The position numbers and the translations under genes are program-made. This document shows positions 42,000 through 64,000 of a DNA stretch of 64,000 bases, one piece after another. Origin of the DNA: Lentisphaeraceae bacterium. Its GTDB lineage: Bacteria; Verrucomicrobiota; Lentisphaeria; Lentisphaerales; Lentisphaeraceae. The notes under the pieces were generated by a model. That model had not been told where the DNA came from and made no database searches. It saw nothing but the letters and a program-made list of their open reading frames with translations. Within the stretch, counting starts at the first letter, position 1. Each line of letters begins with the position of its first letter. The stretch is taken from positions 1 to 64,000 of the forward strand of contig JAJPOQ010000039.1 in assembly GCA_021232515.1 (NCBI GenBank). The letters are read 5' to 3'.

Positions 42000-42009
42000 G
42001 GAGGAAAAT

Positions 42010-46159: not shown

Positions 46160-46172
46160 AAAGAGGTAGTAC

Positions 46173-47576: not shown

Positions 47577-47612
47577 GACTTTTACAATCCAAATTATTAG
47601 ACTCGAGACTTT

Positions 47613-48785
47613 ATGCCGCTAGTTGAAACTTTAAGCGAGTGGTTAGATGAATTTAAAGAGTGGCGCCATGAAATTCATGCTAACCCAGAAACTGCTTTTG
47701 AAGAAAATAAGACATCTGCCTTTGTCGCAGAGAAACTAAAATCATTTCAAGTAGATGAACTCCATACGGGTATAGCAACGACTGGTATTGTCGCAGTTAT
47801 TCGTGGTAAATATAAAAGCGATGACTCGATTGCTCTTAGAGCTGATTTAGATGCTCTGGATATACTTGAGAAGAACGATTTCGACTACTCTTCTAAAAAT
47901 CATGGGAAAATGCATGCTTGTGGACATGACGGTCACACTACCATGTTGCTTGCTGCTGCAAAGTATCTTGCTAAGTATCGTGAATTTTCAGGCACTGTAT
48001 TTTGTATCTTCCAGCCAGCAGAAGAAAATGAAGGTGGCGCAGGCTACATGATCGACGAAGGCTTATTCGATCGTTTCCCAGCCAAAAGAGTTTATGGCAT
48101 GCATAACTGGCCAGGTCAAAAAGCTGGTAGTATTTCAATACGAACAGGGCCTGTTATGGCCGCTGCAGATAGATTTGACCTCGTTGTTAAAGGTAAAGGT
48201 GGCCACGCGGCTATGCCTCATTTAACCAATGATCCTTTGATTACTGCAACTCACTTAGTTACTGCTCTTCAGCAAATTCACTCTCGGAGTATGAACCCAC
48301 TAGAACAATCGGTGGTTTCTATTACGCAGATACACGCAGGTGAAGCCTATAATGTTATTCCAGACGAAGCAGTTATTCGTGCATCGGTGAGAACTTTTAA
48401 GAAAGATGTTAAAGAGCTTATTGTTCGTCGAATTCATGAAATAAGTAAAGGTATATGCGAGTCAAACAATTGTAGTTATGAATTGGAATACCGCGAAGGC
48501 TACCCTCCGACAGTAAATGATAAAGAGGCAGCAGCTATTTCAACTAAAGCAGCTTTAGCAACTATTTCTAAAGAAGATGTTTTGCTGGATGAACCTCCAA
48601 GTTTAGCAAGTGAAGACTTTGGTATGATGCTTCAAGAAAAGCCAGGTTGTTACGTTTGGCTTGGAAATGGCCCAGGAGAAAGTGGCTGTATGCTTCACAA
48701 TCCTCATTATGATTTTAATGATGACGTCATCATTACAGGTACGAGTTACTGGATCAATCTTGTTTTAGAAGAGCTTCCTGCATAG
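47613..48785 (+). CDS. M20-family amidohydrolase (hippurate hydrolase / N-acyl-amino-acid type)
   Basis: The 390-residue protein has the M20D metal-site signature: LRADLDAL, then HACGHDGHTTMLLAAAKYL, then QPAEENEGGAGYMI with the catalytic glutamates. GMHNWPG and the lid region KGKGGHAAMPHLTNDP follow, and SEDFGMML near the end supplies a last ligand. Family members remove acyl or other groups from amino acids such as hippurate, N-acetyl amino acids or indole-acetyl amino acids. The substrate cannot be told. Length is typical. The next gene (a cupin) begins two bases after its stop. Confidence 0.92.
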   Translation: MPLVETLSEWLDEFKEWRHEIHANPETAFEENKTSAFVAEKLKSFQVDELHTGIATTGIVAVIRGKYKSDDSIALRADLDALDILEKNDFDYSSKNHGKMHACGHDGHTTMLLAAAKYLAKYREFSGTVFCIFQPAEENEGGAGYMIDEGLFDRFPAKRVYGMHNWPGQKAGSISIRTGPVMAAADRFDLVVKGKGGHAAMPHLTNDPLITATHLVTALQQIHSRSMNPLEQSVVSITQIHAGEAYNVIPDEAVIRASVRTFKKDVKELIVRRIHEISKGICESNNCSYELEYREGYPPTVNDKEAAAISTKAALATISKEDVLLDEPPSLASEDFGMMLQEKPGCYVWLGNGPGESGCMLHNPHYDFNDDVIITGTSYWINLVLEELPA

Positions 48786-48787
48786 AA

Positions 48788-49099
48788 ATGAATATTTTTG
48801 ATGTTTCTTCACTTCCCTTAAAAGAAGAGTTTCTTGAAACTATTTTGAATGAAAAAAACTTTCGTTTAGAAAGAATAGTTTCAAAAGGCCATGTAACTCC
48901 TGATGACTATTGGTACGATCAAGAAGATAACGAGTGGGTAGTCCTTTTGGACGGCGAAGCGACTATTGAGTACAAGGATGGATCTAGAAAAGTCCTGAAG
49001 AAAGGGGATAGTTTACTTATTCCTAAACATGAAGAGCATAAAGTGGTTGAAACCAGTAGTTCACAAGAAACTATTTGGCTGGCTCTTTTTTGGCAGTAG
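48788..49099 (+). CDS. Small single-domain cupin
   Basis: The 103-residue protein is a minimal cupin barrel. Motif 1 is E-W-V-V-L-L-D-G-E-A-T-I-E-Y, with few of the usual histidines. Motif 2 is K-K-G-D-S-L-L-I-P-K-H-E-E-H-K-V. With an incomplete metal site it may be a binding domain or depend on the remaining His. It lies two bases after the M20 gene and is probably cotranscribed. Its last 29 bases overlap the small converging gene at 49071-49262. Confidence 0.82.
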   Translation: MNIFDVSSLPLKEEFLETILNEKNFRLERIVSKGHVTPDDYWYDQEDNEWVVLLDGEATIEYKDGSRKVLKKGDSLLIPKHEEHKVVETSSSQETIWLALFWQ

Positions 49100-49262
49100 T
49101 CTTTATATTCTTACTAGATTTCTTTTCAGAAATATCCATATGGTTTTCAATCCAATCGAGAAAAGCTTCTTGACCAAGGTCGTAGCCAGCTTTTTCGGAT
49201 TCAATCCATTTATGACGATCCATTTCTTGGATCTGTTGTTTGATCAAACCTTGAGTATTCAT
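49071..49262 (-). CDS. Small basic-tailed protein, 63 residues
   Basis: The product has a compact segment (QEMDRHKWIESEKAGYDLG, then QEAFLDWIENHM) with conserved-looking Trp, Gly and acid residues, followed by a lysine-rich tail (KKSSKNIKTTAKKEPAK). The first part reads like a short conserved bacterial motif (H-K-W-I-E-S-E-K-A-G-x-D) and not like a random shadow. No family name is certain. The binding site is weak (GG nine bases upstream). It overlaps the cupin 3' end by 29 bases on the opposite strand. Confidence 0.6.
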   Translation of the reverse strand: MNTQGLIKQQIQEMDRHKWIESEKAGYDLGQEAFLDWIENHMDISEKKSSKNIKTTAKKEPAK

Positions 49263-49347
49263 TAAATAACCAAATTTTAATTATAACTCATATAATCTAT
49301 ACTGAAAATTAACACAAGAAAAGTTTTTTCTGAAAATAATCAACAGA

Positions 49348-49770
49348 TTATGAATTAACCATCCAAGGAGAAAAGCCCTTGAGGAAATTTAAGAAACCAG
49401 GAAGACAGTCTTCTGGAAAATTATATTTTTCCTTGGAGTCCACTAAAACCTTCTCAAAACAGTTAAGCCAAACATCTTTAGCTCTTTCATCTATTGTAAA
49501 AGGCATATGACGAGCGCGTAATCGTGGGTGACCATAGAGTTGGTGATAAAGAGGAGGGCCACCACAAAGCCCGATAAAGAAGGCGGCGGATTTTCTGGAT
49601 GCAGCTTTTAAGTCTTCGGGAAACATTGACTTTATTTCTGATTGACCCAGTTCATCATAAAAATCTTCAAGTAGTTGAACTATATTTTCAGAGCCCATTT
49701 CTTCAAAAATTTTATGGCTTGGAGGGTCAACTTGTGGAGGGCCAAACATAGACGATGTATACCTAGTCAC
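49348..49770 (-). CDS. Truncated haemoglobin (globin group II)
   Basis: The 140-residue protein matches truncated globins of the YjbI/GlbO type. It has FPEDLKAASRKSAAFFIGLCGGP at the E-helix side, GGPPLYHQLYGHPRLRARH, and the proximal histidine in LRARHMPF (His 88). A tryptophan in VWLNCF occupies the G-helix position typical of group II. It binds haem and probably oxygen, or handles nitric oxide or peroxide. It starts at GTG 49770 or ATG 49749; neither has a strong binding site. It is a single gene with no evident partner. Confidence 0.92.
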   Translation of the reverse strand: MTRYTSSMFGPPQVDPPSHKIFEEMGSENIVQLLEDFYDELGQSEIKSMFPEDLKAASRKSAAFFIGLCGGPPLYHQLYGHPRLRARHMPFTIDERAKDVWLNCFEKVLVDSKEKYNFPEDCLPGFLNFLKGFSPWMVNS

Positions 49771-49936
49771 TTTAAATTCGATGCAAGAATATTCCCATAC
49801 CTGTTAAAGTTGCAACCTCTAATTTTAATAGTGTTGTGTTTTTGTTTAGTAGAATCATTTTAAAGTTATTTCCTTGATTGTTTATAGTTGTTTTGGTGTT
49901 GTTATCTATATGAATTATGAGTAGGTAGTTATAAAT

Positions 49937-49953
49937 CTTCATGGATCATGAAG
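49937..49953. promoter_or_regulatory. Operator-like palindrome upstream of the metal-related genes
   Basis: CTTCATG GAT CATGAAG is a perfect seven-base inverted repeat with a three-base centre, in the intergenic region 72 bases before the ATG of the Sel1 lipoprotein gene. Its size and spacing fit a dimeric repressor site. The repressor is unknown. Confidence 0.35.
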
Positions 49954-50024
49954 TAGGAGATTTGTAGATGAGTTAATAGAAGTTAATATTTTTTGTAACT
50001 CAAATTTAATTCTAAAGACTTAAT

Positions 50025-50444
50025 ATGAAATACTTAAGCTTATTATGCCTACTTTTTATGATGACTTCTTGTAGTTGGTTTGACAGTGAAGACGTAAAGA
50101 AAGAGCCAATTGATGAGGATCAAAGAAACGAAGAATATTTACGTCAGCGAAATGACGCTCTTGCTGCAGCAAGAAGTAGACAAGGTAATTCTGTTCAAGA
50201 CACTCCAAATTTATACTTAGGTACTAAACCTAAATTTCTGATTGAGGCTGAGAAAATGAAAAGCCTTAAAATAAAAGCTAGAAAGGGTAATAAAGATTCT
50301 CAATATTCTCTTGGGCTATGTTATAAATATGGTATAGGGGTAAAACCGGATAATGAAACCGCAGCTTTTTGGTTTGAGAAAGCGGCCAACCAAGGACACT
50401 TGCAGGCAAAGAGAGTTTTATTTTCTCTTTTAAATAGCAAGTAA
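50025..50444 (+). CDS. Lipoprotein with Sel1-like repeat
   Basis: The 139-residue product has a lipoprotein signal (MKYLSLLCLLFMMTSCSW, cysteine 16) and an acidic linker. One Sel1-type helical repeat follows, of the form A-x-x-G-x-x-x-A-x-x-x-L-G-x-x-Y-x-x-G-x-G-V, here KGNKDSQYSLGLCYKYGIGV, and then part of a second (AAFWFEKAANQGHLQA). Sel1 repeats mediate protein contacts. It probably starts a plus-strand unit that includes the Cys-rich protein 46 bases downstream. Confidence 0.82.
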   Translation: MKYLSLLCLLFMMTSCSWFDSEDVKKEPIDEDQRNEEYLRQRNDALAAARSRQGNSVQDTPNLYLGTKPKFLIEAEKMKSLKIKARKGNKDSQYSLGLCYKYGIGVKPDNETAAFWFEKAANQGHLQAKRVLFSLLNSK

Positions 50445-50490
50445 TTCATTAGAGGTTGGAATTCTTGCTTTTTAGAAGTATTAAGATTCC

Positions 50491-50994
50491 ATGAAAAAAT
50501 TATCACAGTACTCACGAAGCATAACTCTAGCATTGACAATGATATACCTTTTGTCTTCAGGAGGCTTTAGTTCTGTAGTTCGAGAGGTTTGTGATAGATT
50601 TGAAGTTGCCTATTTATTTCCCTGCAAAGGTCATGGTTGTCACTGTGACATCATAGGTAAAGAACTCCCAAATTGTATGTGTGTTCATACTGCTGAAGTT
50701 TCCATAGAGTGTTGCTCAGAGCCAAATGATAAATTTAAAATCGTTGAAGAAGTTACTTGTTGTAGTGATGAAAATTCAGAAACACAGCAGTTAATAGTTA
50801 TTAAGAAAAGTGGTTGTGGAGGGTTAGACTCAGACGAGTCTTTTTTAGTCCAAAAGCATTTGGGTTTAGACTCAGAAAAAGCTACAGAAAAGCTTTATGT
50901 ATACACATTAGTTAATATAGCTAATAAAATGGATTTCATATTAATAGAAGTAATCAATAAGATTCATAAAGTTCCTCTAGAAACTCTCTCATAA
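50491..50994 (+). CDS. Cysteine-rich secreted protein, possible metal binder
   Basis: The 167-residue product has a signal anchor or signal peptide (SITLALTMIYLLSSGGFSS). A Cys/His-rich core follows: CKGHGCHCDIIGK, CMCVH, ECCSE, TCCSDE, SGCGG, with over a dozen cysteines in about 80 residues. The C-terminal part is helical. I recognise no family, but the spacing suggests metal ligation and not disulphides alone. The next gene encodes a His/Met-rich outer-membrane protein of a copper-associated type, which supports metal handling (inference). Confidence 0.65.
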   Translation: MKKLSQYSRSITLALTMIYLLSSGGFSSVVREVCDRFEVAYLFPCKGHGCHCDIIGKELPNCMCVHTAEVSIECCSEPNDKFKIVEEVTCCSDENSETQQLIVIKKSGCGGLDSDESFLVQKHLGLDSEKATEKLYVYTLVNIANKMDFILIEVINKIHKVPLETLS

Positions 50995-51065
50995 TCAAAA
51001 GTTATAACCCATCATCAAATGAGTTGGGAAGAAGTACCAAATAATTTCAATTATAAGAGATAAGA

Positions 51066-52121
51066 ATGAAAATATTTTCTATATTTTTAGTATTTTTCAC
51101 TTTCGGTCTTAGTGCCGAAGAGCATGGTTCACATATTGATCACAATCATCATAACCAAGCTCATCAACACGCGCCAATAGGTGTGATGGGTAGTCATTTA
51201 CACGAAGAAGGATCTTGGATGTTCTCATACAGGTTCATGTATATGGATATGGATGGTTTGAGAAAAGGGACAGACCGTGTTAGTCGTTCAGATGCTAATG
51301 GTCCTATGATGGCGGGTAAATACCCTATGGTTCCTCGTCAAATGACAATGAAAATGCATATGCTTGGTACTATGTACGGCGTAACAGATGATCTCACCAT
51401 GAGCTTGATGATTCCATGGCTTGAGAAAAGTATGGATAGTTCGGCTAGAATGATGGGTGGAACTGGACCAGAGAATAAATTCTCAACGAGAAGTGATGGT
51501 TTTGGTGACATAAAACTCGGTAGTTTGTATCGACTTTATAAGAATGATGACCTAGAAGTTATATTTAATCTTGGCCTAAGTTTACCAACCGGTAGCTATG
51601 AAGAACAGGGTAAAAACCCTATGTCTATGGGAAATGAATTACGTCAAGGTTATCCTATGCAGCTTGGTTCTGGTACATTTGACCTTATGCCTGGTATAAC
51701 GATTGCCGGTCATACAGACACACTTGGTTATGGCGCACAAGTAATCGGTACAATTCCTTTGGGTAGAAATAGCCAAGGTTATAGCCAAGGTGACAGCATA
51801 AAGTTTAACACTTGGTTATCTAGAAAAATCACTAGAAACTTTAGCCTTTCAGGTCGTATTGAGCTAAATAGTTGGAATGACTACAATGGTCACGATGATG
51901 AGCTTGTAGGCCGTGTAAATATGATGCCTACAGCAGATCATGATTTACGGGGTGGAACTAGAGCAGATGCTTATATTGGTGGTAATTATCTTTTCACTGA
52001 AGGAGCTTTAAAGGGGCATAACTTAGGATTAGAGTTTGGTATGCCATTTTATCAGCAGCTTGAAGGACCAAACCTTGAAACGGATTATATCCTAACAGTT
52101 GGTTGGCGCGTAAGTTTTTAA
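51066..52121 (+). CDS. His/Met-rich outer-membrane transporter-like protein, probably copper-associated
   Basis: The 351-residue product has a signal peptide (MKIFSIFLVFFTFGLSA) and then a histidine-rich stretch (HGSHIDHNHHNQAHQH). Next is the segment EGSWMFSYRFMYMDMDGLR and methionine-rich MTMKMHMLGTMYGVTDDLTM. The rest alternates like a beta-barrel (FGDIKLGSLYRLY, LTVGWRVSF, ending in Phe). Relatives are annotated as phenol-degradation-MetA-like or copper-cluster outer-membrane proteins. His and Met richness fits Cu binding. It precedes a terminator at 52134-52158. Confidence 0.8.
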   Translation: MKIFSIFLVFFTFGLSAEEHGSHIDHNHHNQAHQHAPIGVMGSHLHEEGSWMFSYRFMYMDMDGLRKGTDRVSRSDANGPMMAGKYPMVPRQMTMKMHMLGTMYGVTDDLTMSLMIPWLEKSMDSSARMMGGTGPENKFSTRSDGFGDIKLGSLYRLYKNDDLEVIFNLGLSLPTGSYEEQGKNPMSMGNELRQGYPMQLGSGTFDLMPGITIAGHTDTLGYGAQVIGTIPLGRNSQGYSQGDSIKFNTWLSRKITRNFSLSGRIELNSWNDYNGHDDELVGRVNMMPTADHDLRGGTRADAYIGGNYLFTEGALKGHNLGLEFGMPFYQQLEGPNLETDYILTVGWRVSF

Positions 52122-52133
52122 TATTGTTTATAA

Positions 52134-52158
52134 ATCTCCCAAGTTTATCTTGGGAGAT
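52134..52158 (+). terminator. Rho-independent terminator after the His/Met-rich protein
   Basis: ATCTCCCAAG (52134-52143), loop TTTAT, CTTGGGAGAT (52149-52158) is a perfect ten-base stem, followed by a short GTTTT. It lies 12 bases after the stop codon and just before the binding site of the zinc-ribbon gene. Confidence 0.75.
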
Positions 52159-52172
52159 GTTTTAGGAGAAAA

Positions 52173-52631
52173 ATGTCAACATTAGCAGTAGTAAATCACG
52201 GGCCTCTTTTAGCCTGTAAGTGCCCAGAGTGTAAGACTCATGGAGAGTTTCACCTAACGGAGAAACTTATCCCATCAAACTTTATAAAGAAGATGATGCT
52301 CATTTTTGATCGTAAAGAGTGGAACCTTGAGTGTCAAGATTGTCAGCACAATCATAAAGTTCCGACTCAAGAAGGCGTCTTCATTAAGCAAGTTATGACT
52401 GAAACATCGAAAGATACGTCTCCAGAGAAAATGGAAACGTTTCAAAAGAAGATGGAGCAAGTCACATTTGTCGGAGAACTTTTCAACCAGTCTTTAGGTT
52501 GGGATTGTCCTAAGTGTAAAGAGTCTGTTGCATATAACTTTCAAGCTTGTTGGAACTGTTCAGAACCTCATCCTGAATATGAAGGTGGGAATGAACCGCC
52601 TAAGTTTATCCCACCTATGGGATGTTGCTAG
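52173..52631 (+). CDS. Multi-CxxC zinc-ribbon protein
   Basis: The 152-residue protein has four CxxC-type sites: CKCPECKTHGEFH, CQDCQHNH, CPKCKES and CWNCSEPH. These form two probable zinc ribbons separated by a helical region (SPEKMETFQKKMEQ). It ends GCC. There is no signal peptide, so it is probably cytoplasmic. The family is not recognised. AGGAGA precedes the ATG. Its end overlaps the converging coiled-coil gene by four bases. Confidence 0.7.
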   Translation: MSTLAVVNHGPLLACKCPECKTHGEFHLTEKLIPSNFIKKMMLIFDRKEWNLECQDCQHNHKVPTQEGVFIKQVMTETSKDTSPEKMETFQKKMEQVTFVGELFNQSLGWDCPKCKESVAYNFQACWNCSEPHPEYEGGNEPPKFIPPMGCC

Positions 52632-53842
52632 TTTAGAGGGACAGCAGTAAAGCCTGTTGTCGGTAGCATGAGCTCTTTTGTCGCAGCGTTTGGTAGTATA
52701 TCACAGACAGCTTGCCCCTTTAGAACTTTTGTAACTACTGCCTTACAGACAAACTTGCCATTATCATGAATGATGAGATTAGCGTTTCTGACTAATCCAT
52801 TGTTCCTGCCTTTATCAATTATAAAAAAGTTAAATCGATCATTAACCTCTATAACTTTTGCGTTTAGATCAGTAGGGAGTTTTTGACTTGAAAGTCGTTT
52901 GCGTTCCTCCAGGTCTCTTCTGAGTCTAGCAACTTCAGCTTTCATTCTACCGTGATTGTTTTTAAGTTCGTCATTTTCGCTATTTAGTTCTTGGATAACA
53001 TTTTCTTTTGTCGCAAGTTGCGATCGTTGTTCTTCTAGTTGTTTGTTTGCGATTGTCAGTTCATAAAGCTTCTTGCTAAACTTATTAAAGTCACTTTGAA
53101 TCATAAGAAACCCTTGGCGTATTTCATCTGGACTAGCTTTATTAAAGTCTAGAGTCCTCCAACTTGGGGTAAAAAGAACTTCGCCATCTTTTGTCGCAAG
53201 GTCTTTGTTTAGATCATTGAGACTAGAAGCTAAAAGATTTTTTTGAGTAATGAGTTCATTTGTTTTAGCATTCATTTTCTCTAATGATTTTTGAATGTCA
53301 TCAGAAGCGGCTTTAAGACTAATGCGAGTATTACTACCGTTTAGAATACTGTTGCTATTTAAGTGATTTAGGATAGTGACTTGTTTGGCGTTAAGTAGAT
53401 CAATTTCTTGGCTGATAAGCTTTAAGTTTTGTTGATAAGTTAAAACAGAATTTAGTGAATGCTCATCTATCTCCTTAAGCTCAAACTTTTGATTGATAGC
53501 AATTATCTCTTTTGCTAAATCTTGTTTTAAAGTCAGCAGCTGTTCGGTGGCTTCGTTTATTTTATCAACTTCACTTTCCCATGCAGAGAGGTCTTTTAGT
53601 TTTGCGTCTTTATAGCTTTGCCAGTTGAGTTTTTCATCAGTTATAGTATCAGAAATACCTATCTCAGTTGAAAGTTTGTCATGAGAGTCAATCACATTGG
53701 CATTTTTGACTATGACTTTAGAAAGGTAATTGGCTCGCTCTCGCAGTTCGATTCTTTGTTGATACAGGACATACGAAAATATGCATGCTGCACATGCGGT
53801 GATTAGAATGAGACCATTCAGTATTTTGTTGACGACTGGCAT
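52628..53842 (-). CDS. Membrane-anchored coiled-coil protein
   Basis: The 404-residue product has one N-terminal TM (about 7-26, LNGLILITACAACIFSYVL). A very long coiled coil follows (about 30-325), and then a small beta-rich C-terminal domain (AKVIEVNDRFNFFIIDKG, VCKAVVTKVLKGQAVCDIL) like the SH3-like ends of MreC-type proteins. GAGGAG precedes the ATG. I do not recognise the family. It follows the ceramidase-like gene on the same strand after 173 bases containing two hairpins, so it may be separately transcribed. Confidence 0.7.
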   Translation of the reverse strand: MPVVNKILNGLILITACAACIFSYVLYQQRIELRERANYLSKVIVKNANVIDSHDKLSTEIGISDTITDEKLNWQSYKDAKLKDLSAWESEVDKINEATEQLLTLKQDLAKEIIAINQKFELKEIDEHSLNSVLTYQQNLKLISQEIDLLNAKQVTILNHLNSNSILNGSNTRISLKAASDDIQKSLEKMNAKTNELITQKNLLASSLNDLNKDLATKDGEVLFTPSWRTLDFNKASPDEIRQGFLMIQSDFNKFSKKLYELTIANKQLEEQRSQLATKENVIQELNSENDELKNNHGRMKAEVARLRRDLEERKRLSSQKLPTDLNAKVIEVNDRFNFFIIDKGRNNGLVRNANLIIHDNGKFVCKAVVTKVLKGQAVCDILPNAATKELMLPTTGFTAVPLN

Positions 53843-53872
53843 GTTATACTCCTCAATTATTTATGCACATAA

Positions 53873-53928
53873 CTGTTCAAAAGTTGCACATTTGAACAGC
53901 GCTACGAATCTCAAAAAAACTTTGAGAT
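53873..53928. repeat. Two adjacent hairpins in a 173-base intergenic gap
   Basis: CTGTTCAAA (53873-53881) and TTTGAACAG (53891-53899) form a perfect nine-base stem. ATCTCAAA (53908-53915) and TTTGAGAT (53921-53928) form an eight-base stem 9 bases further on. On the minus strand the second hairpin lies after the ceramidase gene's stop and could end transcription, but its T run is in the loop. The first could be an operator or leader structure of the coiled-coil gene. Confidence 0.45.
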
Positions 53929-54015
53929 AAAAACATAAACATCCGGAGTTTATTATTTAGAAAAGACTTATTTTTTCTCTCTCTAATAAATCTGATCTGT
54001 ATAAGTTATAACAGC

Positions 54016-54753
54016 TTAGTCACTCGAACCTGTCATAGGAGTCGATATTTTTTTTGTTAAGAGGACAACAATAAGTATCGAAAGGCTGGCGCTTATATGC
54101 TTTAAAGAATGGCCGCTGACAAGATGCTGAGTAGCTTCATAAATGATCCGATCTCCCATTTCTAAAGCTTTTGCGAATGTGTAGAAAATGATCAGTTTCC
54201 AAAGGTAGGGAGCATATGAAGTTTTCGATTTGATGATGTGTATGGGAATCCAGATCATCGGTACAAATTGGACAAGTATATAAGGTTTAAGATCGTTATA
54301 AATTGCCCAATAAATGACGCTTGAAATTCCACAAATTAATAATGGCAGAAAAAGCTTTTTCGCAAGGTTTGCTAGATCTGTTATATGCATTATTAAACAG
54401 ACGAGACTCATAAATGAAATAGTCATGGGAAGCCTATCCCAAACGAGGGTTTCTGAATTTGGTTTTAGGTGATAATAGCCTGAGCCCAGTCCTACCAGAA
54501 TTGAGCCTATGAAAAAAGTAATTAGGTAAGTCTTTAGGTCCTTACTATGGTGAGATATGAGTGAAATAATCAAACCCCAAATACCAAAAAGAATAAAAGG
54601 TAGGTTCGAAAGAACATCCCAAGTATTTGTACACAAAATAACATGACGTTTATCGGCAAAATTATGGTAGAGCTCGTCTTGTTGTAGCGGCGGAGTAACT
54701 GCAAATAGCCCTATGATTAAGGCGATGATGATAATTAAGTTTTTTTTAGTCAT
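54016..54753 (-). CDS. Ceramidase-superfamily (CREST) membrane protein
   Basis: From ATG 54753, which overlaps the LRR gene's TGA, the product has 245 residues and about seven TM segments. It has the conserved points of the alkaline-ceramidase/CREST group: YHNFADKRH, N-T-W-D-V-L-S-N-L-P-F, GSGYYHLKP, WDRLPMTISFMSL, and a late His pair (SGHSLKH). Histidine, aspartate and serine in these motifs build the zinc site of alkaline ceramidases. Bacterial members are uncharacterised. The likely role is cleavage of an amide or ester in a membrane lipid (inference). Confidence 0.8.
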   Translation of the reverse strand: MTKKNLIIIIALIIGLFAVTPPLQQDELYHNFADKRHVILCTNTWDVLSNLPFILFGIWGLIISLISHHSKDLKTYLITFFIGSILVGLGSGYYHLKPNSETLVWDRLPMTISFMSLVCLIMHITDLANLAKKLFLPLLICGISSVIYWAIYNDLKPYILVQFVPMIWIPIHIIKSKTSYAPYLWKLIIFYTFAKALEMGDRIIYEATQHLVSGHSLKHISASLSILIVVLLTKKISTPMTGSSD

Positions 54754-57107
54754 GGTAAGAAATCCCAAATTAAGGGTGCCTCATATTTTTCAGAGATAGC
54801 TTTGTCGGTAATTCTAGTTCCAAGTATGCTTAGTTTATAGAGCGTCGGAATCCGTTCTAAATGAGTAAGTATTTCTTGATTTATATTTTCATTGATGGGG
54901 AGTTTTAAAACTTCAAGAGATCCGAAATTTTCAAGAACAATAAGGTCTTTTGAGCTTAAAGGCGCATTGGATAAATCGAGTGCATTTAAGGCTATTATTT
55001 TGCCCCAAGAGCTGAGTATTTCTTTATTAAGTTTCTGACAATTACATATGAGCTTAAGCAAGCCTGTTAAGTTGCTGATTGATTCTAATACCTCAGTATT
55101 CAGATTTCCCATTGTCTTTAAAAACTCAAGAGACTCTAGCTTTGGAAAGGTGCCGGAAAGTTTTATAAATGGACCTATTATAAGAGACTTAAGCCCTGTC
55201 GCATGCTTTAAAGAGTTTAGCTCAAAACTTCCAGAGCCATCGATAATTAATTTTTCGCAGCTACCATTTTTAAAGCTAATTATACTTTTGGCATCTATTC
55301 CCTTAGGTAAATGGACTCGGCAAGACTCTAATTGATTTGTAAGGTGTATTGGAGTGTCAGGTGGAACGTTTATTTCTAGAGAATGAATTTTCTTAAGTAT
55401 TACACTTTCATTTATAGCGTTACCACTTTGTTGGGAATTGAGCACAACATTATAGAGTAAACGAATTTTTGTGAGATTGTCCCATTCTTTAGTGGTTATC
55501 TTCTTACCAGTAAATGACAGTGTAGATAGTTGAGGGAAGAACTCTTCTAAATTCTGTAGATGGCCAGTTCGATCATGAACTACATTTTTAGAAGTGTGAA
55601 CTGCCCAGGTAGGAAAGGATATATTTCTATCTAAGTGACTAGAGAAGATTTGGAGCATTCCCCACTGGTGAACCCTTTTTAGAAACTTTAAGCGTTTCTT
55701 TTCTGGTATATTTCTATCGCCAAAACTTACCTTGATGCGCTCTTTTGGGTGACCTTCGTAGAAGTTCATAAGTAAATCCAAGGATGCATCAGTGATTTTT
55801 GTATTATCTAAGAATATGACTCTTGGAAGAGTTTGAGTTAGTAGCTGTTTAAGGTCTTCATCGTTAAAGTCTGTATTTGAGAAGTCGAGTACTTCATACT
55901 CTTGGTTATTGAGTTTGGTTATAAGTGAAGAACTGAATACTTCTTTACTGAAATGGATTCTGTTAAATTTTTCGAAAGGTAAACTCGAAATATTTTTTAG
56001 AGAAGTCCCTCTGAAATCTATTGAAGTCGGTGGAAACTTTGAGAGAAACTTTAAGCTTTTGTCTGTAACTTCAGAATTGTTATAGAGGCTAACTTTATCA
56101 ACTAGTCCCATGCGCAAGAAGTTATTCTTCTCCGGGATCTTTTCGAGAAAGTCTTGGAATGTAGCTATGAATGAGTCATCAATTTTTGCTGGTAAATCAT
56201 AATAAGCGATAGGGACACTTTTCATTTTAAGAATCTTCTGCAGATTCTCTTTCGTTAGCTTTATATTTACATCAGCAGATTCAAGTTGTGTTTTATTGGT
56301 GATCAGTTGCAGTGCATCAGACAAGTCGTAGTACTTGGAAAGTACCTGACCTTCGGCACGACCTTCTCTGAGCAGTGTTTTTGTTGGAGTTCCTAAACTG
56401 AGGAATTTTAGCTTCGTCATTCCTTCTAAAAAACTCAATTCTTCAGGTTTTGCGAAGACATCCTCCAGAGATAAGTGCTCAAGTTTATTTAAGCCTAGAA
56501 GATGCTGAAAGTGTTTAGGTGAAATGAAAGTGGATGTACGCAAAGTAAGTTTTTTTAAACTTTGCATATGTTGAATGCTGTTAAATACAGAGGGCGCTAT
56601 GTCGGAACCTGAAATACTTAATTCTTCAGTATTCTTAAAACTCCTAAATTGATCATTTAAAACTAATCTTTCGCCATGGATATGAAGTGTTTTTGGCGAT
56701 GACTTTAACTTAAAAATAAAGTCCAGTGAACTTAGTGAATCTGCTTCTTGATTATTAGTTAGGTTTAAAGAAAGTTTGTTAATAGACTCTAAACCTTGAA
56801 TTGCAGAGATTAACTCCTGCGCACTTATCTGTTTCTTTTCTTGTACATTCCCAAGTATAAGGTCGACATTTTCTTCATAACTAAAGTCTATATCAATCGC
56901 AAAAGAAGTCTTCAGCATTTTTTTGATTTGAGCGGGTAGCTTTGAGTACCATTTGGGAGGTAAATAAGAGACACTTACATTTGAGGCTGTACTTAAATAT
57001 TCTAAAGCTTTGGATCGTTTTTGAATTTTTTGAAACAAGAAAAGAATAAATAAGATACTTAAAAAAGCTACGCTGAAGAGAATCCTTTTTTTATATTTAC
57101 TGATCAA
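54750..57107 (-). CDS. Membrane-anchored leucine-rich-repeat protein
   Basis: The 785-residue product has a basic N-terminus and one TM (about 10-27, LFSVAFLSILFILFLFQ). Irregular leucine-rich repeats fill nearly the whole outer part. Typical units read L-x-x-L-x-L-x-x-T/N, such as LKFLSLGTPT, LKALHIHG-like strands, LDLSNAPLSSKDL and ILGTRITDKAI. Repeats of this loose kind are common in planctomycete and verrucomicrobial surface proteins and bind other proteins. It is 45 bases after the C39-like peptidase gene and overlaps the ceramidase-like gene by four bases. Confidence 0.8.
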   Translation of the reverse strand: MISKYKKRILFSVAFLSILFILFLFQKIQKRSKALEYLSTASNVSVSYLPPKWYSKLPAQIKKMLKTSFAIDIDFSYEENVDLILGNVQEKKQISAQELISAIQGLESINKLSLNLTNNQEADSLSSLDFIFKLKSSPKTLHIHGERLVLNDQFRSFKNTEELSISGSDIAPSVFNSIQHMQSLKKLTLRTSTFISPKHFQHLLGLNKLEHLSLEDVFAKPEELSFLEGMTKLKFLSLGTPTKTLLREGRAEGQVLSKYYDLSDALQLITNKTQLESADVNIKLTKENLQKILKMKSVPIAYYDLPAKIDDSFIATFQDFLEKIPEKNNFLRMGLVDKVSLYNNSEVTDKSLKFLSKFPPTSIDFRGTSLKNISSLPFEKFNRIHFSKEVFSSSLITKLNNQEYEVLDFSNTDFNDEDLKQLLTQTLPRVIFLDNTKITDASLDLLMNFYEGHPKERIKVSFGDRNIPEKKRLKFLKRVHQWGMLQIFSSHLDRNISFPTWAVHTSKNVVHDRTGHLQNLEEFFPQLSTLSFTGKKITTKEWDNLTKIRLLYNVVLNSQQSGNAINESVILKKIHSLEINVPPDTPIHLTNQLESCRVHLPKGIDAKSIISFKNGSCEKLIIDGSGSFELNSLKHATGLKSLIIGPFIKLSGTFPKLESLEFLKTMGNLNTEVLESISNLTGLLKLICNCQKLNKEILSSWGKIIALNALDLSNAPLSSKDLIVLENFGSLEVLKLPINENINQEILTHLERIPTLYKLSILGTRITDKAISEKYEAPLIWDFLP

Positions 57108-57152
57108 TGCTATGGATCCTCATCATGTATGATTGTTTAGGAAAGAATTCTT

Positions 57153-60149
57153 TTACCTTGGACGAATTTCCCAAAGTGCCATACTTACCCAAAATGCATC
57201 TGTCATCTTCATTGCTTTCAGCTCATGGCCAGCGCCCCAACTGTCAGTATAAAAAATGATGTCTTCAATTTCATTGTAGCCGATAATTAAACGCATGTGG
57301 CCACCACGTGCTTGAGGAACATCACTTTCAGGGATTATCCCAAGCATCAGAGCCCAGACTACAGGTTGTCCTTTATTTATGAGCCTAATTATACCGCGTT
57401 TAAAGTCTTTGTAGCGACTCTCATCGGTGGACATTATTTTAAATGCTTCTTGTAACTCAGAAACTTTAAAAGGTGATTGATAGGTGTAACCAAGTTTCTT
57501 ATAGGTTCTTTCGAGTTTCTGTTCAAATCGTTGTTTGTCTCTATCGCTACTCATATAACATTTTACTATGTCATTTGTATGTAAGCGAAGTTTACTAGAA
57601 ATAACCTCAAGAGCTTTCTTTAACTCATCAGGATCAGTTCCCATTGCACTACTGGAAGCTAACTTAGCTATATCATGCTGATCAATTTCTTTGCCATAGT
57701 AATTGAGTACCCGTGCTGTCGCAGCACATGCACAATAGCCCTTAGCTCCTTGGTCAACCATTGGTATACCCTGTATGACGACAGAACCATCTTTAGTCTT
57801 GGTAATCATCTGTAGTAGCTCTTTGCTAGACAACACATCTTGGTTAGCTTTGTCTATATTGACTTGGTTTAGTCCGTCGACTATGGGAGAAAAACTAAGC
57901 CTTATATATTCACTAGAAAAGTTTTTTCTAGTTTCAGTGTAGTTGGCCTCAAGTTTGATCAGAAAGTTTTTGGCTTTCCACCAGTATAGGAAGTTTTTTG
58001 CTAGTCCAGCATTTGGCTTATAGAATGGATCCGTACCAGTAATTAACTTAACTGCAAGTTTAGCAGTATTTAGTTTTGAGATATAAACGTTTTTACTGAT
58101 GACATCTTCATCACCTTTATTATAAAACATCATTACAATTTTATTTAGTTTTTTCTTTCTGAATTGAAAAATAGTCTCTAAAGAAGTCGATTTATTGAAG
58201 TCAAGAGGCGTGACGGTTCTCGCCGATCTTTTAAGGTCATCTGTCCAGACTGCATCGAGTGGCTTCATGTATTTGGCTTCAAAGTCGTTTGTTTTAACCT
58301 GAGTGAAAACCTTTGTTGCCATCTTACCAGTAAAGAACTTTTTAAGATCTTTACCCACGATGGTTTCAGAAGTGCTCGTATTTGTCTCTTTTATGAGTGT
58401 TGGAGGCTTTTCTTTATTTTGTGCGATCGTTGGTTTTACTTTTGTATCTCGAGATAAAGGTGGAGCGTTTCGGTCACGAGTTACGAGAAGGTTAGTTTCC
58501 TTGAATGCTGTTAAAGATCTTTTTGTTAGCTTTAAGATGTTATCTGACAATTCATCGTGTGAGTAACTAAGAAGAGGTTTCCAGCGAAAACCATTGGCAT
58601 CTCCATAAAGAATATTGCCTAAGTCTATATCATCTCTTAAAAGTTTAGATTTGCCTTCATAATTGTACCTGATGTTATTGTCCCAAAAGGAGCTCAGGAG
58701 CTTATGAGAACTTTCTCTGTATTGTGGATCATCCGTGTATTGATAAAGAGAGTTTCCTGCAAATTTAAAATTACTACGTATAAGTTTCTTCTTAGCGTTG
58801 AACGTATAATTGATGTTTCGCGAGAGGTATGTGTACTCTAAGATTTTATAATTTGGGGTGAGGTTGGTACCACTGCTGCCTTCTTGGTTGGAACTACTGA
58901 TTTTGTAAATTTGGGATAGTCGGCCACTTGAAAAACCATAGACATATTGAAGTTTTTTAGAATATCCTGGTAAGCATATTTCTGAAATTTTAGGGTGGCC
59001 TAAGTGGTGCCAGGTTTTGCAAATTGTAGAAGCTACACTGCCGTTGATGACGTCAACTTGTTTAATCTTTCCATTTTGGACAGTCCATTTTAGGTATGAT
59101 TCAAGTTGCAAGGGGCTCAAGCTAACTTGTTTTGGATCTGAAATAATTGGAAACCCTTCGTCAGATATCTTAACTGAAAATAAGCTACTTTGGTCAACAG
59201 GAGAATAAAAGACTTTTGTTTTGAGTGTTTTAATAATGTGTGGATTTCTCTTTTCACTATGTATTTGAGTGAAAAATTGCTCCTGCCGAGTTGAATCCAG
59301 TTGCCAGTTTCTATTTAGCTCAATAAAGTTTGCAAAAGCTCTCAATTCTATATTCGGTATTACAGTTGGAGCATTCGGTTCAGGTATTTTCTTAAAACTA
59401 TCGCTGAATGCAACTATAAGTCTTCCATTAGGGCTATTCGCGTAGCTATTTGGGGGTAAAAAGTAAGAATGCACGACCAAGCCATTATTGAGTAGTGCTT
59501 TATTTATCTCTACCCCATTGCCTTTGAACTCAGAAGTGAAAGTCCCGCCAAATAGAGTTGATACTTTATTAAGTGCATTTTTTTTAAGTGTTAACCATGC
59601 TCTCTTAGTGTTAGAATCAAAAGGCTTTAGCTCATGTATTAAGCTTGTTAACCCGTCTTCAGTTGTATAATTTATTGTACTTTGAAAGGAATTAGGGAAT
59701 AACTTAGAATCATATGAAGACCTTCTTTGATATGTAGATTCTGATATGTGTATAAAGTGTCTTTGAAGCTTATTGAAACTGGCTTTGAATAAGTTGCCAT
59801 CATACAACCAATCAGTTTTAAAGGGGAATTTCTTATTGATATTAGAAACTTGAAGGAGATAAGGTCTATCGGTCTTTTTTTTGGCCTGTACGTCTTTGTT
59901 GATTGATTTAGTAACTGGACCTTCTTTTTTCGTCTCTACAGTCTTAAAAAAGTCATCTATGTCTTTTGCCGATGCGGTTTTTTCGGTATCTTTCTTTGGA
60001 GATACTTTTGCCGTTATAACATTTTGTTGATTATCTTCAATTGAAACTTTTTCTGAATCGCCCTTATTGCCAACGAAAAGTAATGCGGCGGCAAGTACTG
60101 CAATTGTCGCCATGAAGCCTGTAAGTATCTTAAGTTGTGAAGTGTTCAT
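57153..60149 (-). CDS. Large membrane-anchored protein with C-terminal C39-like peptidase domain
   Basis: From ATG 60149 the product has 998 residues. It has an N-terminal TM (about 8-28, TGFMATIAVLAAALLFVG) and a Lys/Glu-rich linker. A central region of about 700 residues is rich in aromatic and polar residues and matches no family I know. At about 791-998 lies a papain-like C39 domain. Its cysteine is in GAKGYCACAATARVLNYYG (Cys 806 or 808), its histidine in RGGHMRLIIGYN (His 951), and its aspartate in FYTDSWG (Asp 969). C39 domains cut leader peptides at Gly-Gly in exporters, but C39_2 domains also occur as free secreted proteases. Here it is not fused to an ABC transporter; the ABC genes are adjacent. 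Confidence 0.78.
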   Translation of the reverse strand: MNTSQLKILTGFMATIAVLAAALLFVGNKGDSEKVSIEDNQQNVITAKVSPKKDTEKTASAKDIDDFFKTVETKKEGPVTKSINKDVQAKKKTDRPYLLQVSNINKKFPFKTDWLYDGNLFKASFNKLQRHFIHISESTYQRRSSYDSKLFPNSFQSTINYTTEDGLTSLIHELKPFDSNTKRAWLTLKKNALNKVSTLFGGTFTSEFKGNGVEINKALLNNGLVVHSYFLPPNSYANSPNGRLIVAFSDSFKKIPEPNAPTVIPNIELRAFANFIELNRNWQLDSTRQEQFFTQIHSEKRNPHIIKTLKTKVFYSPVDQSSLFSVKISDEGFPIISDPKQVSLSPLQLESYLKWTVQNGKIKQVDVINGSVASTICKTWHHLGHPKISEICLPGYSKKLQYVYGFSSGRLSQIYKISSSNQEGSSGTNLTPNYKILEYTYLSRNINYTFNAKKKLIRSNFKFAGNSLYQYTDDPQYRESSHKLLSSFWDNNIRYNYEGKSKLLRDDIDLGNILYGDANGFRWKPLLSYSHDELSDNILKLTKRSLTAFKETNLLVTRDRNAPPLSRDTKVKPTIAQNKEKPPTLIKETNTSTSETIVGKDLKKFFTGKMATKVFTQVKTNDFEAKYMKPLDAVWTDDLKRSARTVTPLDFNKSTSLETIFQFRKKKLNKIVMMFYNKGDEDVISKNVYISKLNTAKLAVKLITGTDPFYKPNAGLAKNFLYWWKAKNFLIKLEANYTETRKNFSSEYIRLSFSPIVDGLNQVNIDKANQDVLSSKELLQMITKTKDGSVVIQGIPMVDQGAKGYCACAATARVLNYYGKEIDQHDIAKLASSSAMGTDPDELKKALEVISSKLRLHTNDIVKCYMSSDRDKQRFEQKLERTYKKLGYTYQSPFKVSELQEAFKIMSTDESRYKDFKRGIIRLINKGQPVVWALMLGIIPESDVPQARGGHMRLIIGYNEIEDIIFYTDSWGAGHELKAMKMTDAFWVSMALWEIRPR

Positions 60150-60188
60150 ACCCTTATTCCCCGATCTAACCAATTTTCTTTATAGAAA

Positions 60189-62759
60189 TTAAGCTTCAGA
60201 ACGCAATAAATCCAGTGATGTCTTTGTATAAGTTTTTCTAGAAACGAGTAAGCCGATAACGATTGTTAATGTGCTTAGAATGACGTTTGTATAAATTACT
60301 AATTGCCAATCAAAAGGCATGTAGTTTTGAAAGACAAATTTTGACAACATGAAATTTGCAGTATAGGCAAGTGCTAAGCCTGCATTTGCGGACAAAATTG
60401 CCAAGAAAGTAAATTCGGAAAAGAGAATTGAGCGGACTTGTTTTTGAGATGCTCCAAGTACTTTCAAGAGAGTATTCTCTCTTAGGCGTTGAGATTGGCT
60501 CAGGTGTAGTGAAGAGATAAGAATGATTAAGCCTGTGATGATGCTAAAGCCAGCCATGACTTTGACTGCGAGTGACGCTTTATTGAGCATGTTACTCACT
60601 GTCGCAACGACCAACGAGAGATCTAAGACAGATATGTTTGAATAGCTTTTAGTGATAGACTTTTGTAGCTCTACAGCTGTTTTGGTGTCCGGCGTTCTCG
60701 TAATAGAAACGATCATTTGAGGTGCATCGTTTAAGACGCCATCTGGGAAAAGAACAAAAAAGTTTGGGCGCATTTGCATCCATTCAACACTTCTCTTACC
60801 AGAGATAACGCATGGAAGCTCAATTCCCCCAAGGTCAAAAGTCATGGTATCACCTACTTTTAACTTCATTTTTTGCATTATGCCTTCTTCAACGGTAACA
60901 GGGACAGGATTTTTGGAGTTTGAGAAGTCTTCGTCATATTTTGGGATGAAGTTACCTTCCAATAGTTTTTCAGAATCCAGTAACTTGTCGCGATAAGTTG
61001 ACCTATAGGTTCTAGTCAAAGTCCAAGAAGGTATTCTTTGTTTTCTCTTCACTTTCTTATTTTCAGATAACCAGAACTCTACAGGTTTTCCTTTCATACT
61101 TTTGAGCTGCATGCCGACTATTGGTATGACATCTATTGCACTAAGGTTTTTCTCTTTTAGAATACTTTTTACACCAGCGACTTGGTCTGTTTGTATGTCA
61201 AAGAGAATGAGATTTGGGTTATTGCCATTTTCCGTTTTTCTGACTTGATAGAGCATATTTTCTTGAGCTAAGTACAAAAGGCAAATTAAGAAAGTCCCAG
61301 TGCCGAGAGAGCAAATAAGTGTTAGTGACTGATTTTGTGGACGGAATAGATTTTTTAATCCTTGTTTCCAGATGAAGGGTAAAGTTTCGGATACGGTTTT
61401 CTTAACAATTTTAATCATGATGAAAGCAAAAAGAGCTAGACAGCAAAGAGCTCCTAACATGCCGAGACCCATGTAGAGACCTATTTTAAATGTACTCGCA
61501 CTTAAAATAGAAAAGATAACGATAAGACTAGCAAGAAACAGTTGGATAGGTATTTCCCAAACAGTTTTTACACTGTTGATGTTTAGTTCACTTTTTAAAC
61601 TATCTGCTGCACTAAGTTGGTTGAGCTTAAGTAGTGGGGTTAAAGCAAAAAGAACTGTAATGATTGTACCGGTGACTGTGCCTAAAAGTAATGCCGAAAT
61701 AGAGAAGCTTGTTTCAACGGTTATTGGCAAAAATGAAGAGATCAGGACTGGAATGAACTCTTGAAGTAGTAAGCCAAATAGACTCCCAAGAAGTCCGCCA
61801 ACGATACCCATAATAAGAGCTTGGATGAAGTAAATGGTTAGGGCTTGTGATCTTGATGCTCCAAGGCAACGGAGTATTGCGGCATTTTTTAGTTTTGAGT
61901 TTATGTGAACTCTTATGGCGCTACCTATACCTGTGCCGCCGAGTAATAAGGCAATGAAAGCGACTAAGTTTAGAAAGTGAAACAGGTTTGATAAAGTTTT
62001 ATCTATGGCTTCTTGTCTATCTTCGGTAGTTTCATAACGGACACCATAGTCAACTTGAGCATCGTCCATTTTATTTTTTAGAGCTTTTTTGTCGGTATTT
62101 TCAGGGAGCTTAAAATAGTGACGGTACTTAACTCGACTTCCAAAACCGATAAGGCCAGTTTTTGGGATGTCTGTAAAATTAATAAGAACTCGTGGCGAAA
62201 GCTCGGAAACAATAAAGCTTTCTCCAGGTAGTGACTTTATATAACCGGCGACTTTAAAGGTATGTTTTCCAAGAACTATAGGGTCTCCAACTTTTATACC
62301 GAACTGAAGTATAAGCGATTCATCAATAAGTGCAGAATTTTCAATGGTACGAAATTTTGCTGAAGCATCTTCTGGAATGGTGTCGATATTTCCGTAGAGC
62401 GGGAAAGCATCCTCAATTCCTCTTAACTGTATTAGTCTTGAATTATCTTCAGAGTTTGGAAACTTTGCCATGGAGGCAAAACGCCATTCTTTGGTATCGC
62501 TAACAGAATTTTTTTGTAGGCTTTTTGTTAATTTATCCGGAATTGGCTGACGGCTCTTAACCAAGAGGTCGCCACCAAGTAATGCTCGAGATTGTTCAAT
62601 TATACCACCTCTAACAGAATCACCAAAGGCTCTAAGTGCGACTAAAGCAGCAACGCCTAGACATATACACGAGAGAAAAAGAAACATACGTTTTCTGTGA
62701 GCGCGACTGTCTCTCCATGCCATGGTCCAACACCACTTTGAGAAAAATTTTTTAATCAC
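60189..62759 (-). CDS. FtsX/LolE-type ABC transporter permease, long form
   Basis: The 856-residue protein has the duplicated MacB_PCD/FtsX plan. A TM near 25-50 (FLSCICLGVAALVALRAF) is followed by a periplasmic domain. A first TM cluster is at about 255-470 with LRCLGASRSQALTIY, then comes a second large periplasmic domain, and a second cluster near the end has LLKVLGASQKQVRSIL. This is the YbbP-like layout. Partners export lipids or lipoproteins, or act mechanically on periplasmic proteins. It starts at GTG 62759, overlapping the ATPase stop (GTGA). Downstream are the C39-like and LRR genes. Confidence 0.9.
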   Translation of the reverse strand: MIKKFFSKWCWTMAWRDSRAHRKRMFLFLSCICLGVAALVALRAFGDSVRGGIIEQSRALLGGDLLVKSRQPIPDKLTKSLQKNSVSDTKEWRFASMAKFPNSEDNSRLIQLRGIEDAFPLYGNIDTIPEDASAKFRTIENSALIDESLILQFGIKVGDPIVLGKHTFKVAGYIKSLPGESFIVSELSPRVLINFTDIPKTGLIGFGSRVKYRHYFKLPENTDKKALKNKMDDAQVDYGVRYETTEDRQEAIDKTLSNLFHFLNLVAFIALLLGGTGIGSAIRVHINSKLKNAAILRCLGASRSQALTIYFIQALIMGIVGGLLGSLFGLLLQEFIPVLISSFLPITVETSFSISALLLGTVTGTIITVLFALTPLLKLNQLSAADSLKSELNINSVKTVWEIPIQLFLASLIVIFSILSASTFKIGLYMGLGMLGALCCLALFAFIMIKIVKKTVSETLPFIWKQGLKNLFRPQNQSLTLICSLGTGTFLICLLYLAQENMLYQVRKTENGNNPNLILFDIQTDQVAGVKSILKEKNLSAIDVIPIVGMQLKSMKGKPVEFWLSENKKVKRKQRIPSWTLTRTYRSTYRDKLLDSEKLLEGNFIPKYDEDFSNSKNPVPVTVEEGIMQKMKLKVGDTMTFDLGGIELPCVISGKRSVEWMQMRPNFFVLFPDGVLNDAPQMIVSITRTPDTKTAVELQKSITKSYSNISVLDLSLVVATVSNMLNKASLAVKVMAGFSIITGLIILISSLHLSQSQRLRENTLLKVLGASQKQVRSILFSEFTFLAILSANAGLALAYTANFMLSKFVFQNYMPFDWQLVIYTNVILSTLTIVIGLLVSRKTYTKTSLDLLRSEA

Positions 62760-63433
62760 TGAGAGATAACTCCACCTTTTAAGCGAATTATCTGTTGCAT
62801 CTTTGCTGCTAAGTCATTGTCATGTGTGACCATGATTAGCGTCGTGCCGTATTGCTCATTTAGTTTTAGCAAACTTTCTTCAACAGCTTTGCCTGTTTCG
62901 GTATCGAGGTTCCCTGTCGGTTCATCAGCAAAAAGTATTTCAGGTTGATTTATAAAGGCACGGGCGATAGCGACCCTTTGTTGTTCACCGCCAGATAATT
63001 GTCCAGGGTAGTGGTCGAGGCGCTCTTTGAGTCCAACCTCTTCCAAAAGTTGTATTGCTTTTGCTTTAGTGCTGGCTTCAGCTTTACCTTGCAGTTCCAT
63101 AGGGACCATCACATTTTCCAATGCAGTGAGAGTTGGAAGTAGTTGAAAGGCTTGAAAGATGAAACCAACTTTTTTACTGCGTAGTTCAGCTCTTTCGTCT
63201 TCACTCATTTCTTGAAGGTTTTTGCCACATAGATTCACTATTCCCGAGCTTGGGTCATCCAAACCCGCGGCGATGCTTAAGCAAGTGGATTTCCCACTTC
63301 CAGATGGCCCGACTATAGCAGCAGTCTTACCTTTTGTGATAGAGAAACTAACATCTTTGAGAACGTGAAGTTGGTGATTCCCCATTTCGTAGTAACGATT
63401 GAGTCCATTGGCTTCGAGTATTAGTTCTTCCAT
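62756..63433 (-). CDS. LolD/YbbA-type ABC transporter ATPase
   Basis: The 225-residue protein has Walker A GPSGSGKST, Q-loop FQAFQLLP, ABC signature LSGGEQQRVAIARAF, Walker B ILFADEPTGNLD and the switch histidine in VTHDND. The LPTLTALENVMVP and PGQLSGGEQQR segments are typical of the LolD/MacB/FtsE subgroup. AAGGA precedes the ATG. It is translationally coupled to the permease and diverges from the MscS gene. Confidence 0.95.
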   Translation of the reverse strand: MEELILEANGLNRYYEMGNHQLHVLKDVSFSITKGKTAAIVGPSGSGKSTCLSIAAGLDDPSSGIVNLCGKNLQEMSEDERAELRSKKVGFIFQAFQLLPTLTALENVMVPMELQGKAEASTKAKAIQLLEEVGLKERLDHYPGQLSGGEQQRVAIARAFINQPEILFADEPTGNLDTETGKAVEESLLKLNEQYGTTLIMVTHDNDLAAKMQQIIRLKGGVISQ

Positions 63434-63547: not shown

Positions 63548-64000
63548 ATGGTTTTTATTATGTATCCAAATCTATTTTTTATTGCCGCCGCCTCACTAGA
63601 TGAAAAAGCGAAAGAGTTTCTAAACGAACAAGCGCCTATTTTTGCCAAAAATATAGTTTTTGCATTACTTATTTTCTTTGTCGGTAGAATTCTTATTTCA
63701 GGCATACTTTCCATGACAGATAAAGTTATGGAGAAATCAAAAGTAGAAGATACTCTCAAGTCGTTCATCCGTGCTTTGATTAAGATCACTTTGATGGTTG
63801 TAGTTATACTTGCAGCTTTAGAACAAATTGGAGTTAAGACTACTTCATTTGTCGCTATACTTGCAGCGGCGGGTTTAGCTATAGGTATGGCTTTGAAAGA
63901 TACTTTGGGAAACTTTGCATCTGGGGTGATGATTATTCTTTTTAAACCCTACAAGGTTGGTCATTTTGTTGAAGTCGCAGGAACTTCAGGTGTTATCGAA
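63548..64000 (+). CDS. MscS-family mechanosensitive channel, N-terminal part
   Basis: The frame starts at ATG 63548 (or 63560) and runs off the right edge; 151 codons are visible. Two or three TM segments are seen. The pore helix and following beta domain are recognisable from VAILAAAGLAIGMALKDTL, then GNFASGVMIILFKPYKVGHFVEVAGTSGVIE (quoted in part for the N-F-A-S-G-V and G-H-F-V-E motifs). It releases solutes on osmotic down-shock. No strong binding site precedes either ATG. It diverges from the ABC ATPase over about 114 bases. Confidence 0.9.
   Translation, partial: MVFIMYPNLFFIAAASLDEKAKEFLNEQAPIFAKNIVFALLIFFVGRILISGILSMTDKVMEKSKVEDTLKSFIRALIKITLMVVVILAALEQIGVKTTSFVAILAAAGLAIGMALKDTLGNFASGVMIILFKPYKVGHFVEVAGTSGVIE

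Follow-up and report, generated by a model that had tools for sequence, protein, structure and literature searches.

FtsEX is known to pair with peptidoglycan hydrolases. The closest described counterpart of the transporter considered here is YbbAP-TesA, a lipid-hydrolase complex of E. coli built on a Type VII ABC transporter and described in 2025 (PMC12646458). In the mechanism put forward there, ATP hydrolysis by YbbA would move the periplasmic domains of YbbP, which would pull a lipid-like molecule from the inner membrane and hand it to the GDSL hydrolase TesA. For the CREST superfamily, the defining motifs have been set out (PMC3146951), and the corresponding residues in ACER3 include S77, H81, and D92 (PMC9436119).

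The window analyzed here, a 64,000-nt stretch of contig JAJPOQ010000039.1 from a Lentisphaeraceae bacterium, carries six neighboring minus-strand genes, encoding YbbA, YbbP, a C39-family protein, an LRR-like protein, a ceramidase-like protein, and a coiled-coil membrane protein. A sequence-only reading of this DNA had joined the six into one unit; all of them are indeed present at the coordinates that it gave. Its description of the junctions was also correct when these were read directly: ybbA and ybbP overlap by 4 nt, the C39-family and LRR-like genes are separated by 45 nt, and the LRR-like and ceramidase-like genes share an ATGA overlap. In addition, ybbP is followed after 39 nt by the C39-family gene, with a purine-rich site ahead of its ATG, and 173 nt lie between the ceramidase-like and coiled-coil genes. 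With spacings this tight (39 nt, 45 nt, and the ATGA overlap), a single transcript could run from ybbA to the ceramidase-like gene; promoter and terminator scans performed no better than shuffles. Nevertheless, the region very likely marks where three independent modules meet and does not encode a single system. This reading is based on gene content, on conserved residues, and on synteny, which was assessed by matching the genes of the window's contig one by one to those of a second genome of the genus (the sister genome, G001); co-transcription, substrates, and biochemical activities at this locus are predicted.

On the evidence of profile and structure-linked sequence matches, the ABC pair is YbbA-YbbP. 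In Pfam profile searches, the 225-aa YbbA (62756-63433, minus strand), the ATPase of a Type VII ABC transporter, matches ABC_tran at 126 bits, and the 856-aa YbbP (60189-62759, minus strand), a duplicated FtsX/MacB-type permease, matches FtsX at 86 bits, in two stretches, and MacB_PCD at 55 bits. Residues 8-823 of YbbP align to the solved E. coli YbbP (9ge6) with an E value of 3e-78. The best NCBIfam matches are to YbbA (NF007879, 282 bits, below the cutoff of 336) and YbbP (NF041854, 331 bits, below the equivalog cutoff of 999); both equivalog cutoffs are narrow, and missing them argues against an E. coli-type equivalog label, not against homology. The pair had previously been classed as LolD/FtsX-type, which holds for an ABC transporter with an FtsX-type permease but not for LolD/FtsX proper, given the matches to 9ge6 and the NCBIfam models. 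The sister genome has a YbbA orthologue in the same position (77% identity), and the two YbbP copies are 72% identical. The sister ybbP (G001:C13:72045-74606) contains one in-frame TAG, representing a pseudogene, readthrough, or an assembly error.

A tesA gene lies just outside the window, at contig positions 64409-65011; the gene inserted between it and ybbA codes for an MscS-like channel and has its 5′ part at 63548-64000 on the plus strand. Aligned with E. coli TesA, the encoded protein is 41% identical and keeps all five of the active-site residues tested (D35, S36, N99, D180, and H183). The sister genome lacks an MscS-like gene at this place, and tesA and ybbA are direct, divergently oriented neighbors there. 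A phylum-wide sample of 20 YbbP loci showed YbbA beside YbbP in 18 and tesA divergent from and adjacent to ybbA in 16; two further YbbP loci from the same class also have tesA. At the contacts between TesA positions 141/142 and YbbP positions 148/145, the pair here has V/D with V/K, and the salt-bridge residues are not kept one-for-one. Charge complementarity at these contacts among relatives amounted to a net 13 pairs versus 3.2 in shuffles (fraction 0.005), which weakened to a fraction of 0.097 once E. coli and two near-duplicates were removed, so that this signal is suggestive only. Judged by its sequences, YbbA-YbbP with tesA alongside is most likely a system of the YbbAP-TesA complex type, for which a physical complex and hydrolysis would be expected here as well. 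The sequence-only reading knew of no described system with this gene set, and for the core it was mistaken, as the ABC pair together with tesA corresponds to YbbAP-TesA (PMC12646458). Its notion of an FtsX-type transporter working with a lipid hydrolase was right in kind, since YbbAP-TesA has been proposed as exactly that, but does not extend to the full gene set.

Comparison with the sister genome separates the remaining neighbors. Positions 57153-79682, which hold the C39-family gene, ybbP, ybbA, tesA, and the genes beyond, match G001 contig 13 in colinear order at 69.0-92.3 kb, a locus also present on JAKVBD010000011.1 of Lentisphaerales bacterium ALOHA_ZT_19. The sister LRR-ceramidase pair is found at 101.0-103.5 kb of contig 13, approximately 29 kb from the C39-family gene and on the opposite strand, and the coiled-coil gene ends a colinear block (35967-53842) that lies on another contig in the sister genome (G001 contig 217). 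The six genes thus map to three places in the sister genome, so that the locus is made up of three pieces that meet at two synteny breakpoints. With the LRR-ceramidase pair and the coiled-coil gene at two other loci, the proposed six-gene unit falls apart for three of its six genes. With one other genome of the genus compared, the genes may alternatively have been gathered recently in this lineage. The search for this gene order that the sequence-only reading had called for gave a divided answer: the sister genome retains YbbA-YbbP-C39, but none of 27 YbbP loci from other genera (a few on short contigs) has a C39-family, LRR-like, ceramidase-like, or coiled-coil gene nearby. Other-genus genomes with both the YbbP and C39 families carry them at separate loci, among the matches listed. 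YbbAP is therefore a known system type with accidental neighbors, and the C39-family gene beside it is a genus-level association.

The C39-family gene (57153-60149, minus strand) encodes 998 aa counted from its ATG. Hydropathy places a single hydrophobic N-terminal anchor at residues 8-26, followed by an unrecognized region to approximately residue 600, a conserved domain at ~607-765, and a papain-like domain at ~780-998. Pfam assigns Peptidase_C39_2 to residues 794-971 (45 bits versus a cutoff of 24), and the oxyanion glutamine, nucleophilic cysteine, histidine, and aspartate (Q800, C806, H951, and D969) are invariant across 63 sequences. In a Foldseek search, residues ~600-998 matched papain-like enzymes, including Alr0975, xylellain, and C39 peptidase domains, with E values of 2e-5 to 7e-4. 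These results bear out the earlier description of a 998-residue anchored protein with a papain-like C39 domain, although the domain had been confined to the last ~200 residues and the confident C39-family region is instead ~600-998. Structure prediction with AF2, which had been advised for the central part of the protein, was confident solely for that same region, and no confident structure was obtained for residues 1-600. A proposal that residues 100-600 are diverged copies of the 607-765 domain had a plausible hhalign register but an E value of 0.16, and was set aside as unsupported; designed repeat proteins that the C39 profile matched among PDB sequences were likewise discarded as artefacts of a helical stretch. 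With no ABC domain in Pfam and a single N-terminal TM segment, the protein is not a fusion of the bacteriocin-type PCAT kind. The family is present in 39 of 60 relatives, and its profile found >550 contig stretches, which, among the matches listed, are nearly all from Verrucomicrobiota, Kiritimatiellota, and Lentisphaerota. A contig scan with the 998-aa protein alone as query gave no match, and no paper on the C39 family in Lentisphaerae came up in a literature search. The N-terminal region of one sister paralogue (L033:9988-11937) resembles a LamG/concanavalin-type domain by appearance, which suggests that the family is modular.

Based on its domains, the C39-family protein is most likely an anchored, predicted periplasmic papain-like enzyme separate from YbbAP-TesA. 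It likely acts on its own outside the cytoplasm, as a peptidase or transpeptidase of PVC bacteria, and its position after ybbP would have come about by chance and been inherited within one genus, a reading that is compatible with the three modules. The contexts of the family vary among the 201 of 388 phylum genomes that have it, and, of the two copies in this genome and the three in the sister, a single one in each is adjacent to ybbP and the others are unlinked to YbbAP. However, both genomes have retained the adjacency even though a rearrangement took place immediately beside it, and the C39-family gene, directly after ybbP, is probably co-transcribed with it. By analogy with FtsEX, the protein might instead be a true accessory of YbbAP in this genus, acting as a mechanotransmission-gated periplasmic peptidase added to or replacing TesA. 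The conserved order and strand of YbbA-YbbP-C39 in both genomes, the gap of only 39 nt, and an anchored, predicted periplasmic protein with an intact Q-C-H-D set would all fit, yet this is unlikely: the adjacency is seen in no other genus examined, TesA is still there, no YbbAP is found near the paralogues sharing this catalytic domain, and the N-terminal part diverges fast. Specifically, identity to the sister protein is 25% over the N-terminal 600 residues, compared to 66% for the catalytic domain and 72% for YbbP, so this region is not constrained equally with YbbP. It is quite unlikely that YbbAP of this marine Lentisphaerales genus gained a second periplasmic partner in the form of a papain-like peptidase anchored to the membrane; if true, this would be a Type VII ABC machine coupling lipid or lipoprotein extraction to proteolysis.

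The LRR-like gene (54750-57107, minus strand; 785 aa) and the ceramidase-like gene (54016-54753, minus strand; 245 aa counted from its ATG) are their own overlapping two-gene unit, separate from YbbAP. The former product had been described as a membrane LRR protein; a single N-terminal TM segment is indeed predicted by hydropathy, and strands and helices are spaced at ~24 residues, which fits LRRs, but no Pfam cutoff was reached, the LRR match being sub-cutoff at 13.5 bits. A single-sequence AF2 model was poor (pLDDT of 49). Its homologue, found in the sister genome only and 48% identical, overlaps a ceramidase fragment there. As previously proposed, the ceramidase-like protein is predicted to be an integral membrane protein of the CREST superfamily, with a match to Ceramidase (PF05875) of 37.9 bits, above the cutoff of 32.5, and a complete CREST signature: S91-x3-H95 (SxxxH), D106, and H215-x3-H219 (HxxxH). 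The S-H and H-D spacings equal those of ACER3. Hydropathy gives approximately five clear hydrophobic segments, the CREST core having seven TM segments, and a search of solved structures returned no relevant match. The complete signature makes hydrolase activity likely, and the protein is probably, from these motifs, a zinc-dependent intramembrane lipid amidase or acyl hydrolase. Among 388 phylum genomes, including this one, ceramidase relatives amount to three clear cases, and relatives of the LRR-like protein are rarer still. In the sister genome, the overlap of the two genes is retained and the ceramidase homologue ends after ~85 codons, followed by an integrase-like C-terminal fragment; because the sister ceramidase is broken, the pair is not obligatory. 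Toxin/antitoxin-looking reading frames also follow the cut gene (L061:13281-14828, corresponding to G001 contig 13 at ~103.3-104.8 kb). A single lineage-specific operon for surface lipid or lipoprotein processing, spanning all five genes from ybbA through the ceramidase-like gene as in the sequence-only reading, agrees with their common direction, short gaps, and ATGA overlap but is highly improbable, with the sister LRR-ceramidase pair located elsewhere, inverted, and broken in its ceramidase, and with both families seldom seen in the phylum, where they do not neighbor YbbP.

The coiled-coil gene (52628-53842, minus strand; 404 aa) is outside the unit and is part of the left syntenic block, with its own upstream region. 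The protein received no family assignment in Pfam and NCBIfam profile searches, and its family occurs in 42 of 60 relatives. The element AACTCCGG is found upstream of the gene in both genomes, and its retention next to different adjoining genes suggests that the coiled-coil gene has its own promoter. The 173-nt gap also contains, at 53872-53898, a 9-bp perfect inverted repeat, CTGTTCAAA-N9-TTTGAACAG, which is absent upstream of the sister genome's coiled-coil copy. Both the sister genome and another genus of the family have a coiled-coil paralogue adjoining a TrmL-like gene. Farther left, window positions 35967-46159 are colinear with G001 contig 217 and include two proteins that are ~90% identical; by appearance only, this stretch resembles MoxR/DUF58/BatA-type genes.

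These results carry the recently described YbbAP-TesA arrangement over to bacteria on the Lentisphaerota/Verrucomicrobiota side. They expose as a question a large PVC-wide papain-like family with a conserved unnamed domain ahead of its papain-like domain, and they serve as a warning that co-direction and short gaps alone may suggest a system that synteny dissolves.

In comparison with known systems, the ceramidase-like protein shares with CREST/alkaline ceramidases (PMC3146951, PMC9436119) the SxxxH, D, and HxxxH motifs, ACER3-like spacing, and an above-cutoff PF05875 match, but it is a bacterial protein of ~245 aa with a putative activity, for which ceramide is only a candidate substrate. The C39-family protein resembles the Peptidase C39 and other papain-like families (PCAT and ComA peptidase domains, xylellain, and Alr0975) in its fold match and Q-C-H-D residues; it differs in being unfused to an ABC exporter, predicted to be periplasmic, and preceded by a conserved unnamed domain. 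A Type VII ABC transporter beside a papain-like periplasmic protein recalls FtsEX with its peptidoglycan hydrolases, in resemblance only, as the permease here is YbbP, not FtsX. Relative to E. coli YbbAP-TesA, an MscS gene splits ybbA from tesA, contact residues are altered, and a C39-family gene follows ybbP; nonetheless, the two share a ybbA-ybbP operon with tesA divergent beside it, a YbbP homologous over almost its full length, and the full set of five TesA active-site residues.
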